From Actinoallomurus sp. (GTDB lineage: Bacteria > Actinomycetota > Actinomycetes > Streptosporangiales > Streptosporangiaceae): 35,615 nt of DNA. The position numbers were made by a program, and so were the translations under genes. Each line of letters begins with the position of its first letter. The stretch's first letter is position 1. Under the pieces are notes generated by a model. That model saw nothing but the letters and a program-made list of their open reading frames with translations. It did not search any database and was not told the origin of the DNA. Location: assembly GCA_025964625.1 (NCBI GenBank), contig JAOPYL010000344.1, positions 1-35,615 on the forward strand, given 5' to 3'. This document shows positions 11,541 through 15,826 of the stretch, one piece after another.

Positions 11541-11788
11541 GGAACCCGGAACGCCGGAAGGGGATGACGGAGGAGGGCGCGGCGACGCGGGCCGCAGGAG
11601 GGCCGGGGCGGCGCGCGGGCCGCGGAAGATTGGTCATGGAGTAAGAGGTCGATCTCTTCGGGTCGGCACGGACCTCCTCACTTTATTCACCCACCGGCGA
11701 TCTTCGGCGTCGAGTGGTCAAAGTCCGCTCGATACTTCGTCCTCCGTCCTCCATCCTCCGTGCCCGGCATGCCGGAAAGGGCGGGCTC
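11541..11788. other. Intergenic region between XRE-TPR regulator and copD-ctaG
   Basis: This contains a three-copy tandem heptamer (CCTCCGT, CCTCCAT, CCTCCGT, 11741-11761) and a 12-base palindrome CCGGCATGCCGG (11764-11775) just past the leftward regulator's stop. Near 11645-11676 a GAGGTC/GACCTC inverted repeat lies in the upstream region of copD-ctaG. Two very short overlapping ORFs on the minus strand (11-34 codons) run into the copD-ctaG start but lack coding character. Confidence 0.4.
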
Positions 11789-13087
11789 TCAGAGGCCGGC
11801 GCAGGTGAGGGCCCGGCGGTAGGCCTGGGCGCGCTGCACCTCGGTGCCGGTCCCGGCCAGCAGCTCGGCGAGCTGGAACCATCCCTGGGCCGCCTCCCGT
11901 GTCGGCTCCATCTGCTCGAGGCACGCGATCGCGCGGCCCAGGACCTCGGCGGCGTCCTCCTCACGGCCGAGCCGGATGCGGGCCTCGCCGAGCACGATGA
12001 GGGCGCCGGCGGTGGCCAGCCGGAGCTCGCCCCCGAGCAGGTCCAGGGCCTCGCTCGCCCGGTCGGCCGCCTTGCCCGGCTGTCCCATCGCGATCTCCGC
12101 GCGGGCCAGCTCGGTCAGGCACCAGGCGATGTCGATCTCCCCGGCCGCCGTCGCGGTCAGCTCGCGCATGGCGCGCTGCAGCTCGTCGCGGGCACGCTCC
12201 GCGTCGTGGGGCCGGGCGAGCAGCATCAGCGTGCCGTACTCGCCGCGCAGCCGGCTGAGGTTGCGGAGATCGGCCGCCTCGCTCAGCAGCGCCAGGGCGC
12301 GCTCGCCGTACGTCACCGCCGTCTCGAAGTCCGCCTGGTACTTGGCGACGACGGCGGCCTCCCAGTAGGCGGCCATCCGGGCCACCGGGCTCCCGGTGGC
12401 GTTCGCGCGCTCGATCAACCGGTCGGCGAGCTGCCGGGCGCTGATGAGGTCGCCGCGCTCGAGGTAGGCGGCGGCGAGAGTCGCGCCGAGCTTGATGATC
12501 TCATCGTCCCAGGGCCCCGGCCGTCCGGTCACCCGCGAGAAGGCGTCCTCCGCCACCGCCACGCTCTGCGCGACGTCGCCCTTCTCCCGGTGGCAGCGCG
12601 ACACCGCGATGGTGAGCCGGATCCACTCGTCGGTGTCGTACTCGGGCGACACGGCGGCGGTCAGACCGGCGAACTCCCTGAGCGCGTCCTCGAGCGCGCC
12701 CAAGGACTCCAGCGCGAGCGCGTGTCCCCAGCGGGCCTTGCGCGCGAACTCGGGCAGGGCGGACAGGTCGGGATCCTGCAGCAGCTCGGCGAACCGGTCG
12801 CGCGCCTCGGCCGCCTCGCCGTTCTGCAGAGCGATCTCGGCGTACTCCAGCGTCGTGCGCATCTTCTCCTGCGCGTCCTCGTCGATGCCGCTGGACAGGT
12901 ACGACGCCGAGCAGCCGAGCTTGCGGGCCAGTAGCCGGACGACATCGGGCGTGGGCGTGCGCTTCCCGCTCTCGATCAGGGAAACGTAGCTGTCGGACAG
13001 CTCGGGGAGAGCCAACTGTGCCTGTGACAACCCCTGGCGCACACGAGCTGAACGGATTCGATGCCCAAGAGATCCTTGACTGTACAC
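11789..13087 (-). CDS. XRE-family HTH regulator with TPR domain (RRNPP-like)
   Basis: 432 residues from GTG 13087 (GCAGG upstream). Residues 7-62 form an XRE/Cro helix-turn-helix: LGHRIRSARVRQGLSQAQLA, then SDSYVSLIESGKRTPTPDVVRLLARKLG. The rest, from about 75, is alpha-helical TPR-type repeats (for example ALALESLGALEDALREF, LAAAYLERGDLISARQLADR, AVTYGERALALLSEA, LGRAIACLEQM). This order matches RRNPP peptide-sensing regulators (PlcR, NprR, PrgX, Rgg), which bind a re-imported peptide in the repeat domain. Similar XRE-TPR proteins are frequent in actinomycetes, mostly without known ligand. Head to head with it, across 56 bases, is a gene for a small secreted peptide, a natural candidate ligand. 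The family call is solid; the sensing role is inferred. Confidence 0.85.
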   Translation of the reverse strand: MYSQGSLGHRIRSARVRQGLSQAQLALPELSDSYVSLIESGKRTPTPDVVRLLARKLGCSASYLSSGIDEDAQEKMRTTLEYAEIALQNGEAAEARDRFAELLQDPDLSALPEFARKARWGHALALESLGALEDALREFAGLTAAVSPEYDTDEWIRLTIAVSRCHREKGDVAQSVAVAEDAFSRVTGRPGPWDDEIIKLGATLAAAYLERGDLISARQLADRLIERANATGSPVARMAAYWEAAVVAKYQADFETAVTYGERALALLSEAADLRNLSRLRGEYGTLMLLARPHDAERARDELQRAMRELTATAAGEIDIAWCLTELARAEIAMGQPGKAADRASEALDLLGGELRLATAGALIVLGEARIRLGREEDAAEVLGRAIACLEQMEPTREAAQGWFQLAELLAGTGTEVQRAQAYRRALTCAGL

Positions 13088-13128
13088 ATTTACCTGCTTT
13101 AACTCGTGAATTGACTGATGTTACACAT
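13076..13128. promoter_or_regulatory. Divergent promoter with paired direct repeats (candidate operator)
   Basis: TTGACTG occurs at 13076-13082 and 13111-13117. TACACAT follows at once in the first copy (13083-13089) and after four bases in the second (13122-13128). The second copy also forms the inverted repeat ATGT-TAC-ACAT (13118-13128), and the first contains TGTACA. TTGACT (13076-13081) spaced 17 bases from TTAACT (13099-13104) can serve as -35/-10 for the prepeptide gene. The regulator's own GTG lies inside the first copy, so binding could control both directions. Confidence 0.55.
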
Positions 13129-13143
13129 GGAGGGATTACGCAC

Positions 13144-13284
13144 ATGGCCCAACTGAAGAGAGCTCTGGCCCTCATCGTTCTCATCCTGGCCGGCATTCTC
13201 CTTGCCACTGAGAGCACTCCCGCCACCGCCGCCCCCACCAGCGGGGGACACGCTCGCTCGGTCCGCACGATTCACTGCTGCTGA
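13144..13284 (+). CDS. Small secreted prepeptide, putative signalling peptide
   Basis: 46 residues from ATG 13144, with GGAGGG about nine bases upstream. The frame is open back to 13018, but that part is antisense to the regulator. It has a textbook Sec signal: basic MAQLKR, hydrophobic ALALIVLILAGILLA, then TESTPATAA with AxA cleavage. The mature remainder would be PTSGGHARSVRTIHCC, 16 residues ending in two cysteines. There are no RiPP-modifying enzymes, ABC exporter or immunity gene nearby, which argues against a bacteriocin or lasso precursor. The divergent XRE-TPR gene suggests that a C-terminal fragment is the regulator's ligand, as with PapR, NprX or SHP peptides. Export is well supported; signalling is inference. 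A strong hairpin follows. Confidence 0.65.
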   Translation: MAQLKRALALIVLILAGILLATESTPATAAPTSGGHARSVRTIHCC

Positions 13285-13363
13285 CCGCTGTTCTCTTCAA
13301 AAGGATAGTTTTTTCCGGCTTCTTCCTGAAGCGGCTTCGGAAAGATGCTGGAGAGCGTCCTGC

Positions 13364-13387
13364 GGGGCCCGGTACCGGCCGGGCCCC
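13364..13387 (+). terminator. GC-rich hairpin after the prepeptide gene
   Basis: GGGGCCCGG (13364-13372) and CCGGGCCCC (13379-13387) form a perfect nine-base stem with a six-base loop, 79 bases after the prepeptide stop. It would separate the peptide gene from the xanthine dehydrogenase gene downstream. Confidence 0.6.
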
Positions 13388-13522
13388 GTCCCGAGGGCCA
13401 CACCGGAGATTCGGGAGATATCGCCAAAGCACGCGCGTCGTTTCGTGCGATCGTGCCCGGTCGGTTCCCGCCCTCTGCTGCTCTACTGCCCTCAGGACGG
13501 GTATGGGACGGTGGTGGGGGAC

Positions 13523-15826
13523 GTGTCACAGCCGCAGAGTCCGCACGCCAGGGAGCGCGTTCCGGTCACCGGGCGATCGTTCGCCGGCGGGGTCGGGGAC
13601 AGCGCCGCGCGTCCGGACGGCGTGCTGAAGGTGACGGGTGCGTTCGCCTACTCCTCCGACCTGTGGATGGACGGCATGCTGTGGGGCGCCACCCTCCGCA
13701 GCCCGCATCCACGCGCCGGAATCCGCGGCATCGACGTCACCGAGGCGATGAGGCTGCCCGGCGTGCACGCCGTGCTGACCCACGAGGACGTCCCCGGCGC
13801 GAAGCACTACGGCCTCGAACTCAAGGACCAGCCGGTGCTCGCGATCGACCAGGTCCGCTACGTGGGCGAGGCGGTGGCCATCGTGGCCGCGGACCATCCC
13901 GAGACGGCACGCCGGGCCTGTGCCCTCATCGCGGTCGACTACGAGGTCCGGGAGCCCGTCACCGACGCGCGCGCGGCCGCCCTCGATCCCGCGTGCCCGA
14001 AGGTGCACGACCGCGGGAACGTGGTGCGCCACCAGCCGGTCCACACCGGCTCGGTCTTCGACGCCGACGTGGTCGTCAGCGGCGAGTACGAGGTGGGCAT
14101 GCAGGACCAGGCCTTCCTCGGGCCGGAGTCGGGGCTCGCCGTGCCGGCCGAGGACGGCGGCGTGGACCTGTTCATCGCCACCCAGTGGCTGCACGTCGAC
14201 CAGGAGCAGATCGCTCCCAGCCTGGGCCTGCCCCCGGACAAGGTCCGGCTCACCCTCTCCGGGGTGGGCGGCGCCTTCGGCGCCCGCGAGGATCTGTCGA
14301 TGCAGATCCACGCGTGTCTCCTCGCGCTGCACACCTGCCGGCCAGTCAAGATCGTCTACGGCCGTGAGGAGTCTTTCTCCGGCCACGTCCACCGTCATCC
14401 GGCGACGCTGCGCTACGAGCACGGCGCCACCCGCGACGGGCGGCTCGTCTACGTCAAGGCCGAGATCATCCTGGACGGCGGGGCGTACTGCTCCTCCACC
14501 CCCGCCGTGGTCGGGAACGCCGCGTCTCTCGGCGCGGGCCCGTACGACGTCCCGAACGTGGCGATCGACGCCTACGGCGTGTACACCAACAACCCGCCGT
14601 GCGGGGCGATGCGCGGCTTCGGAGCCGTACAGGCGTGCTTCGGCTACGAGTCGCAGATGGACCGGCTCGCCGAGGCGTGCGGGCTGGACCCGGTCGAGAT
14701 CCGCGTGCGCAACGCGCTGTCGGAGGGGTCGCGCATCCCCACCGGACAGGTCGTCGACATGCCCGCTCCCCTCACCGAGATGCTGCGCCGCGCCGAGGCG
14801 TTCCCGATGCCCTCCCCGGCCGACACCGGCGACCTGCGGAACCTGCCGGGGGGCGTGTCCAACACCACTCACGGTGAGGGCGTGGCCCGCGGCGTCGGGT
14901 ACGGCATCGGGATCAAGAACATCTGCTATTCCGAGGGATTCGACGACCACTCCACCGCGCGGGTCCGGCTGGAGGTGGCCGGAGGAGAGGCGGCCGTGCT
15001 GGTGCACACCGCCGCCGCCGAGGTCGGACAGGGCCTCGTCACGCTGCAGGCGCAGATCGCCCGCACCGAGCTGGGCGTCGAGCGGGTGACGGTCGCGCCG
15101 GCCGACACGGGAGTGGGCTCGGCGGGCTCCTCGAGCGCGTCCCGCCAGTCGTACATGACCGGCGGGGCCGTCCGGGCCGCCTGCGCCGCCGTGCGGGACC
15201 GCGTGCTCCGCCTCGCCGGGATGCCGGACGGAGCCCTCTCCGGCGACCACGTCCTCGCCGACGGGGTGGCGGTCCCGTTGACCACGGTGCTCGGCGACGA
15301 GGTGATCGAGGAGACCCGGGAGTTCCGGCACCGGCGGACGACTCCCCTCGATCCGGAGACCGGGCAGGGCGACTCGCACACACAGTTCGCCTTCTGCGTG
15401 CACCGTGCGGTGGTCGACGTGGACGTCGAGCTCGGCCTCGTCAAGGTGGTCGAGCTCGCCGCCGTGCAGGACGTCGGCCGGATCCTGAACCCGGTCGCGC
15501 TCGAAGGGCAGATCCACGGCGGAACCGCACAGGGGCTCGGCCTGGCGCTGATGGAGGAGATCCAGGTCCAGGACGGGCGGATCCGCAATCCGTCGTTCAC
15601 CGACTACCTGATCCCCACCATCCTCGACATGCCGCCCATGACCCTGGAGATCCTCGAGAACCCCGACCCGCACGCGCCGTACGGGCTGCGCGGCGCGGGC
15701 GAGCCGCCCACGCTGTCCTCGACGCCGGCGATCGTGGCCGCGATCCGGGACGCCTGCGGGAGCCCCCTCAGCCGCGTGCCGGTCCGTCCGGAGCACATCC
15801 TGGGCACGGATGCGGTCCGGGCCTGA
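13523..15826 (+). CDS. Xanthine dehydrogenase family, molybdopterin-binding subunit
   Basis: 767 residues from GTG 13523 (GGTGGGGG just upstream; in-frame GTGs at 13511 and 13514 are alternatives). It has the aldehyde-oxidase/xanthine-dehydrogenase large-subunit fold: RPDGVLKVTGAFAYSSDL at the start, then GVGGAFGAREDLSMQ, YGREESFSGHVHRHP (Glu282/283 near the substrate), and GAMRGFGAVQ (Arg364, matching the substrate-binding Arg of bovine XDH). Late come GQIHGGTAQGLGLALMEE and GAGEPPT with Glu727 as catalytic base. It hydroxylates purines (hypoxanthine to xanthine to urate) in the cytosol. The purine permease 150 bases downstream supports this. No FAD or [2Fe-2S] subunit gene is adjacent; these must be encoded elsewhere or replaced. 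Confidence 0.88.
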   Translation: MSQPQSPHARERVPVTGRSFAGGVGDSAARPDGVLKVTGAFAYSSDLWMDGMLWGATLRSPHPRAGIRGIDVTEAMRLPGVHAVLTHEDVPGAKHYGLELKDQPVLAIDQVRYVGEAVAIVAADHPETARRACALIAVDYEVREPVTDARAAALDPACPKVHDRGNVVRHQPVHTGSVFDADVVVSGEYEVGMQDQAFLGPESGLAVPAEDGGVDLFIATQWLHVDQEQIAPSLGLPPDKVRLTLSGVGGAFGAREDLSMQIHACLLALHTCRPVKIVYGREESFSGHVHRHPATLRYEHGATRDGRLVYVKAEIILDGGAYCSSTPAVVGNAASLGAGPYDVPNVAIDAYGVYTNNPPCGAMRGFGAVQACFGYESQMDRLAEACGLDPVEIRVRNALSEGSRIPTGQVVDMPAPLTEMLRRAEAFPMPSPADTGDLRNLPGGVSNTTHGEGVARGVGYGIGIKNICYSEGFDDHSTARVRLEVAGGEAAVLVHTAAAEVGQGLVTLQAQIARTELGVERVTVAPADTGVGSAGSSSASRQSYMTGGAVRAACAAVRDRVLRLAGMPDGALSGDHVLADGVAVPLTTVLGDEVIEETREFRHRRTTPLDPETGQGDSHTQFAFCVHRAVVDVDVELGLVKVVELAAVQDVGRILNPVALEGQIHGGTAQGLGLALMEEIQVQDGRIRNPSFTDYLIPTILDMPPMTLEILENPDPHAPYGLRGAGEPPTLSSTPAIVAAIRDACGSPLSRVPVRPEHILGTDAVRA

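Follow-up and report, generated by a model that had tools for sequence, protein, structure and literature searches.

In a 35,615-nucleotide stretch of DNA from an Actinoallomurus species (JAOPYL010000344.1, one contig of a 5.84-Mb draft genome; the whole stretch is called the window below), the gene for a regulator with an XRE-type helix-turn-helix (HTH) domain and tetratricopeptide repeats (TPRs) lies head to head with a small open reading frame (ORF) for a prepeptide that carries a predicted Sec signal and ends in two cysteines. An earlier note, made from the sequence alone, had taken this pair for a candidate peptide-signalling cassette with the logic of the RRNPP systems, in which an exported peptide returns to the cell and is recognized by the TPR domain. 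The comparative analysis described here confirms that regulator and Cys-Cys (CC) prepeptide form a cassette that recurs beyond chance, and makes it likely that the two represent an RRNPP-like pair of pheromone and receptor in Actinomycetota, with a code that ends in Cys-Cys. The features of the locus are the following.

11789-13087, minus strand: gene for the XRE-TPR regulator (GTG start, 432 residues), proposed to act in the cytoplasm as peptide receptor and transcription factor
12896-13057, minus strand: HTH_3 DNA-binding domain of the regulator (44.9 bits, above cut-off)
13076-13104, plus strand: promoter-like TTGACT-N17-TTAACT for the peptide gene, from sequence and alignment, overlapping the first codons of the regulator
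13088-13143: divergent intergenic region, 56 bases between the two gene starts
13129-13133, plus strand: Shine-Dalgarno GGAGG of the peptide gene
13144-13284, plus strand: prepeptide gene (ATG start, 46 residues, C-terminus ...RTIHCC), conserved in relatives
13144-13233, plus strand: Sec-type signal part, residues 1-30, with a predicted A-x-A cleavage site near residue 29/30
13234-13281, plus strand: released tail as predicted from the sequence, PTSGGHARSVRTIHCC
13311-13355, plus strand: hairpin 3' of the peptide gene (folding z -2.24)

Coordinates and domain matches (HTH_3, E-value 6e-11; TPR_12, E-value 5.4e-11) agree with the divergent arrangement over 56 bases that the earlier note had described. 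The good ribosome-binding site and the features of the predicted Sec signal of its account are equally present, the former as GGAGG separated by ten bases from the ATG, the latter as a basic start, a hydrophobic core and an A-x-A site, recognized on inspection and with a simple script score. The full prepeptide is MAQLKRALALIVLILAGILLATESTPATAAPTSGGHARSVRTIHCC, and the last 5-8 residues of its tail are the proposed pheromone. A reading as lipoprotein was rejected, the Cys pair being located at the extreme C-terminus and not behind the signal.

Recurrence of the cassette

Recurrence was assessed on 212 non-redundant regulators, the window's own included and near-identical ones retained, which stemmed from a search of the family (93 of 150 genomes matched at E<=1e-30), a search of the class (58 of 345 genomes at E<=1e-35) and named loci; 211 of them had sufficient upstream DNA. 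The fixed detector, whose criteria were settled only after the first peptides were known, called divergent ORFs of 28-75 residues with an ATG or GTG start, within about 400 bases at most, that possessed a basic start, a hydrophobic core and a ribosome-binding site, and it applied a score threshold only to ORFs lacking the CC ending. A secreted-type, CC-ending ORF was found in this manner beside 90 of 211 regulators, and another secreted-type divergent ORF beside 16, two of which (L213 and L271) are not trusted. Ten dinucleotide shuffles per locus yielded no CC-ending ORF in 2110 trials and 15 other ORFs; the corresponding figures were 0 and 1 of 211 on the upstream regulator strand, and 0 and 7 of 206 in downstream regions. 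Five additional CC ORFs with a weak ribosome-binding site or a TTG start were recognized by eye (L041, L046, L164, L242 and L250), which brings the total to 95.

The small ORF is under coding-type evolution. In 25 pairs, each locus entering one pair, the proportion of synonymous differences (pS) was 0.251 and that of nonsynonymous differences (pN) 0.141, with a dN/dS of 0.51 and pS exceeding pN in 23 pairs. The tail (pN 0.218, pS 0.334, dN/dS 0.58) changes more than the signal part (pN 0.108, pS 0.218, dN/dS 0.45) at both kinds of site. The explanation of the ORF as a chance occurrence was rejected on the basis of the shuffles, the strand controls and dN/dS.

What hardly varies in the tail is its Cys-Cys end: the residues that precede it vary among loci (VFHCC, GPRVHCC, ADWCC, AYLCC, PGMYCC) and are then always followed by Cys-Cys and the stop codon. 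The 94 CC prepeptides measure 37-57 residues, and an extra Cys after residue 25 occurs in one of them. One clade of 14 regulators, with Streptosporangium and Planomonospora as named members, retains both the signal and the position of the peptide, the CC having been replaced by endings such as SLGWNHPD, SFGWNHPG and GPWNGPA. It is of note that tandem cassettes in one genome, which differ in their peptide tails, display HTH identities of 97% and 95% and TPR identities of 73% and 84%, a contrast that is not taken as evidence because the HTH is better conserved in general.

Fold of the regulator and residues of the TPR groove

NCBIfam holds no model that reaches its cut-off for the window's regulator or for two relatives. 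A profile of 111 relatives, compared with solved proteins, gave PlcR as best natural match (E-value 1.8e-13, profile positions 2-187), and NprR (4gpk) followed at 2.3e-8. The AlphaFold model of the regulator, generated from 48 sequences, has a mean predicted local distance difference test (pLDDT) score of 90.5 and comprises the HTH and approximately 18 more helices, which, as read from the helix list, appear to be arranged in nine two-helix TPR-like repeats. Its top Foldseek match is 3u3w, the PlcR:PapR7:DNA complex (E-value 8.7e-8, template-modelling scores 0.36/0.51, root-mean-square deviation 8.3). With PlcR leading both the natural solved proteins in the sequence comparison and the matches by fold, the RRNPP likeness suggested in the earlier note has gained strength, and it is plausible that the regulator works like an RRNPP system.

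In TPR proteins, the first helices of the repeats line the groove. Asn243 and Asn276 belong, according to the helix list of the AlphaFold model, to repeats 5 and 6 (TPR helices 5-6), in each case to the first helix. Asn243 is present in 81 of 95 CC-paired regulators and in none of the 14 with another ending. Asn276 is found in 86 of 95 and 0 of 14, as well as in 23 of 52 peptide-less Actinomadura-type regulators, and is altered in 29 of that de-duplicated set; for Ala239 these figures are 91 of 95, 0 of 14 and 15 of 52. Trp242 and Trp403 occur in all 95 and all 14. Of the 30 columns with the best separation between CC and non-CC regulators, none falls within the HTH. The earlier note had proposed to test for co-variation of TPR pockets and peptide C-termini; CC-paired regulators mostly retain Asn243 and Asn276, an association that fails to reach significance once corrected for the tree, as discussed below.

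Distribution among Actinomycetota

Six named loci are 71-81% identical over the regulator; five are labelled Actinoallomurus (Thermomonosporaceae, Streptosporangiales) and one, the nearest, Actinomadura sp. DC4. Eight Actinoallomurus genomes, the window's own included, harbor three groups of regulator paralogues. The conservation of the small ORF beside orthologous regulators, on which the earlier note had made its proposal depend, is borne out in five of these eight genomes for the window's own group, in all eight for a second group (50-53% identical), and in many further genera and families. The window's genome has a second full cassette (L019), with a regulator 52% identical and a peptide ending in ...MTTDPTSRCC; a thioredoxin gene lies beyond its peptide ORF, and further Actinoallomurus genomes repeat this arrangement, as checked with Pfam on L112.

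In the family search, 80 loci were taken by descending score (L144-L223). Among the top 59 (L144-L202), 58 have a secreted-type prepeptide, 47 with a CC end and 11 with another end; that of L164 needs a TTG start. Elsewhere in the class, the CC ending occurs in all 13 assessable loci of family f19 (21 genomes matched, 14 loci fetched, one short of upstream DNA) and in 8 of the 20 loci fetched from the remaining families (L241, L242, L256-L273), these eight coming from f9, f14, f20, f25, f27 and f38; in seven loci of f26 no peptide was found, save one ORF that is not trusted (L271). Together with f1 and f19, the family codes of the class that have the cassette number eight, and Nonomuraea gerenzanensis is a further named carrier (...MTGDAGCC).

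Actinomadura-titled regulators (L071-L133) are 54-59% identical to that of the window and have no credible CC ORF, L094 and L100 offering only distant ORFs without a signal. The flanks of 52 peptide-less regulators with FPELSDSYI or YPELSDSYI, mostly from Actinomadura, contain no such peptide, the search having been confined to those flanks. A divergent CC peptide was not found in five Streptomyces plasmid loci (L275-L279), and a search of phages returned one partial match and no peptide. On the plasmid of Streptomyces sp. ADI95-16 (L276:5001-7028), two small proteins annotated as hypothetical follow the relative of the regulator on the same strand, the second of which has 70 residues and a secreted-type start.

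A phylum-wide search matched 36 of 396 genomes, and 29 regulators were examined, 25 of them from outside the class. A divergent hydrophobic ORF of 28-58 residues accompanies 20 of the 29, and 14 of these ORFs carry WP or PW close to the C-terminus (controls: 2 of 580 shuffles; none in 29 for the regulator strand); two of the 29 loci have a CC end. The W-P theme is also seen in 7 of the 94 CC peptides (PDWPGMCC). Outside the class (L282-L303, L307), divergent hydrophobic ORFs of 28-38 residues were noted at 17 of 25 loci, many with W-P ends (NWPHH, GYPWPK, APWPHCC). Three loci of code f18, probably Streptomyces, from genomes of 6-9 Mb (L305, L308, L309), have divergent secreted-type ORFs of 37-58 residues without CC.

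Intergenic region and neighbouring genes

The TTGACT-N17-TTAACT element could be a promoter or operator of the peptide gene. Its TTGAC is shared by the window's group of Actinoallomurus loci and by most of the aligned Streptosporangium-type loci, it doubles as regulator-coding sequence, and the -10 match is weak. An operator in the form of an inverted repeat was also sought, and the single imperfect 11-nt pair, 45 nt apart, was left uninterpreted. The strong hairpin of the earlier note stands as a fold, the 79-nt stretch reaching -28.4 kcal/mol (z -2.24; 4 of 200 shuffles fold equally well); it may act as a terminator, but no U-run follows it. At 13300-13355, a stretch that starts with AAAGGATAG and continues into the hairpin has similar counterparts 3' of the peptide ORF at orthologous Actinoallomurus loci, and a downstream stretch of the AAAGGATAG type persists in three Actinoallomurus species without peptide ORF (L014-L016). 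A search of 11600-13600 for known RNA elements returned no Rfam match.

The cassette is flanked in the window by a CopD-CtaG gene and by a molybdopterin-binding gene of the xanthine dehydrogenase type. Neighbours were surveyed through the ORFs of 12 loci (L273 yielded none), with domain scans of eight proteins, and vary by lineage: xanthine dehydrogenase, PucR, CopD-CtaG, a BTAD/NB-ARC regulator, thioredoxin, aminotransferase. No maturation, export or immunity gene is common to them, as the earlier note had claimed for the single locus, and because neighbours differ between lineages a target operon cannot be named. In Nonomuraea gerenzanensis (L274:1678-4518), a BTAD and NB-ARC (AfsR-like) regulator adjoins the peptide gene, and in Streptosporangium amethystogenes (L139:1-2006) a BTAD/NB-ARC regulator lies some 1.8 kb from it, with smaller ORFs between; such a regulator is a possible target of the cassette.

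Proposed mechanism and alternative explanations

By analogy with the RRNPP systems, a divergent promoter would drive expression of the 46-residue prepeptide, which would be exported by Sec and cleaved by signal peptidase; trimming would then yield a short C-terminal Cys-Cys peptide that accumulates outside the cell. An oligopeptide permease would re-import this peptide, a step that is possible because the window's genome encodes six SBP_bac_5 oligopeptide-binding proteins, and the peptide would bind in the concave groove formed by the TPRs of the divergent regulator. Binding may alter how firmly the regulator holds the intergenic DNA between the two genes and sites elsewhere, changing in response the output of the peptide gene and of distant targets. 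From secretion to the sign of regulation and the identity of the targets, these steps are inferred.

Several observations weigh against this pheromone reading. In the profile search, three designed TPR proteins outscore PlcR, and the Foldseek runner-up is a consensus TPR protein (E-value 9.5e-8), followed by many unrelated TPR proteins; since generic TPR proteins score so close to PlcR, common descent with RRNPP receptors, and with it membership based on descent, is not proven. The 14 non-CC regulators seem to form a single clade. A tree from which the tested columns had been left out offered 11 independent pairs; Asn276 and CC changed in agreement in 4.7 of these and in opposition in 0.5 (median p 0.125, not significant), with Asn243 (3.3 versus 0.1) and Ala239 (2.8 versus 1.5) weaker, so that the association of Asn276 with CC is suggestive only. 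The groove helices account for 15 of the 30 best separating columns, versus 156 of 427, with no clear enrichment. The detector made no peptide call for 105 of 211 regulators. A divergent CC ORF is absent from all eight loci of the third Actinoallomurus paralogue group, and three of the eight orthologues of the window's own group lack the ORF even though the downstream stretch is recognisable. A single credible CC ORF (L216) was found in the 21 lowest-scoring family loci (L203-L223), and none in 52 loci titled Actinomadura, sp. DC4 being set apart because its two loci group with Actinoallomurus. These many Actinomadura, Actinoallomurus and low-scoring family loci imply that a regulator may be retained where no peptide gene adjoins it, in which case it may listen in trans or have another job.

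The prepeptide could instead be a secreted effector, such as an antimicrobial, a toxin-like peptide or the precursor of a ribosomally synthesized and post-translationally modified peptide (RiPP), whose expression the regulator merely controls, with no re-import involved. A peptide that is short, of secreted type and variable in its tail would suit such a function, its Cys could be modified, and TPR regulators also control secondary metabolism. The explanation is nevertheless unlikely, as it is the end of the peptide that is fixed rather than its body, some TPR residues track the type of ending, and the lineage-dependent neighbours share no maturation, export or immunity gene; the RiPP or bacteriocin candidate was rejected for want of a shared enzyme, on the basis of few loci. 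Also of low probability is a redox or metal sensor, in which the Cys pair would act outside the cell as vicinal disulfide or metal ligand and the regulator would read the state of the envelope and not density. The near-invariant CC, with additional Cys in just one of 94 tails, the thioredoxin gene beside the second cassette and the CopD-CtaG gene that adjoins the regulator in the window all speak for it; yet the clade of 14 has the same architecture with tails that lack CC (GWNHPD, PWNGPA), just 2 of 29 peptides in the phylum search have the CC end, thioredoxin was seen only beside the second Actinoallomurus cassette, and CopD-CtaG was not seen in every lineage. It is very improbable that the ORF encodes a small membrane protein or a leader whose tail is no ligand: the versions from outside the class do approach one hydrophobic helix plus a few residues, but a fixed CC behind variable residues is unexpected for a leader, and codon-level selection extends to the tail (dN/dS 0.58).

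The RRNPP-like pheromone and receptor pair is hence the explanation we favour. A broader version of it, a phylum-wide, RRNPP-built pheromone system of Actinomycetota with a class-level Cys-Cys code, disulfide readout and language switching, is doubtful. The Cys pair could then form a vicinal disulfide outside the cell that protects the signal from carboxypeptidases and is reduced after import, which would allow cell density and redox state to be sensed jointly, and lineages might change language through a new end and reworked TPR helices 5-6.

Comparison with known systems

Full-text literature searches, which mostly covered neither subscription papers nor preprints, did not retrieve a system of this kind, and novelty is not proven. 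In the RRNPP_detector survey (PMC10075063), the method is applied to Firmicutes and viruses, and small molecules are considered the typical signals of Actinomycetota; a 2016 review (PMC4748050) names gamma-butyrolactones and, in one passage, cyclic or modified peptides. Actinobacteria-type words are absent from the text of two papers on RRNPPA evolution (PMC9765709, PMC12700828). The cassette would be an apparently widespread actinobacterial peptide "language" of a kind studied so far mainly in another phylum. A self-contained pheromone-receptor pair encoded across many actinobacterial genera would supply a set of short peptides that can be synthesized and added to cultures, and makes it a testable question whether Cys-Cys peptides activate silent programmes, including natural-product clusters.

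In the FxSxx-COOH systems of actinobacteria, a peptide class named by its C-terminal motif occurs with a TPR protein. NCBIfam NF040586, which represents them, matches relative L057 (E-value 1.3e-6), at 27.3 bits versus a cut-off of 300; the window's protein has no listed match, and the cassette differs further in having no modifying enzyme beside it. NprR-NprX and Rap-Phr likewise combine a TPR receptor with a neighbouring exported propeptide, export being a prediction for the cassette, the NprR structure being among the profile matches, and differ in their peptides and phylum.

The closest likeness by profile, among natural solved proteins, and by fold is to PlcR-PapR of the Bacillus cereus group, where an HTH and TPR regulator also lies beside a small propeptide, Sec-exported there and predicted to be so here. 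PlcR has five TPRs, whereas about nine TPR-like repeats are suggested by the helix list of the present regulator. The PlcR system belongs to Bacillota and not to Actinomycetota, the cassette described here is arranged head to head, and PapR7, given as ADLPFEF, does not end in Cys-Cys. Nine-TPR folds are mentioned in PMC12700828, which also describes Rap as devoid of an HTH. RRNPP(A) propeptides are expected to have 10-100 residues (PMC10075063); the prepeptide has 46, and its 94 CC relatives 37-57. For receptors of about 250-500 residues with TPRs, the counterpart here is a protein of 432 residues with a TPR_12 match (E-value 5.4e-11) and an all-helical repeat model (pLDDT 90.5). The genes are direct neighbours, 56 bases apart in the window, and across the set a divergent peptide gene adjoins the regulator at 90 of 211 loci with the CC end and at 14 with other endings.
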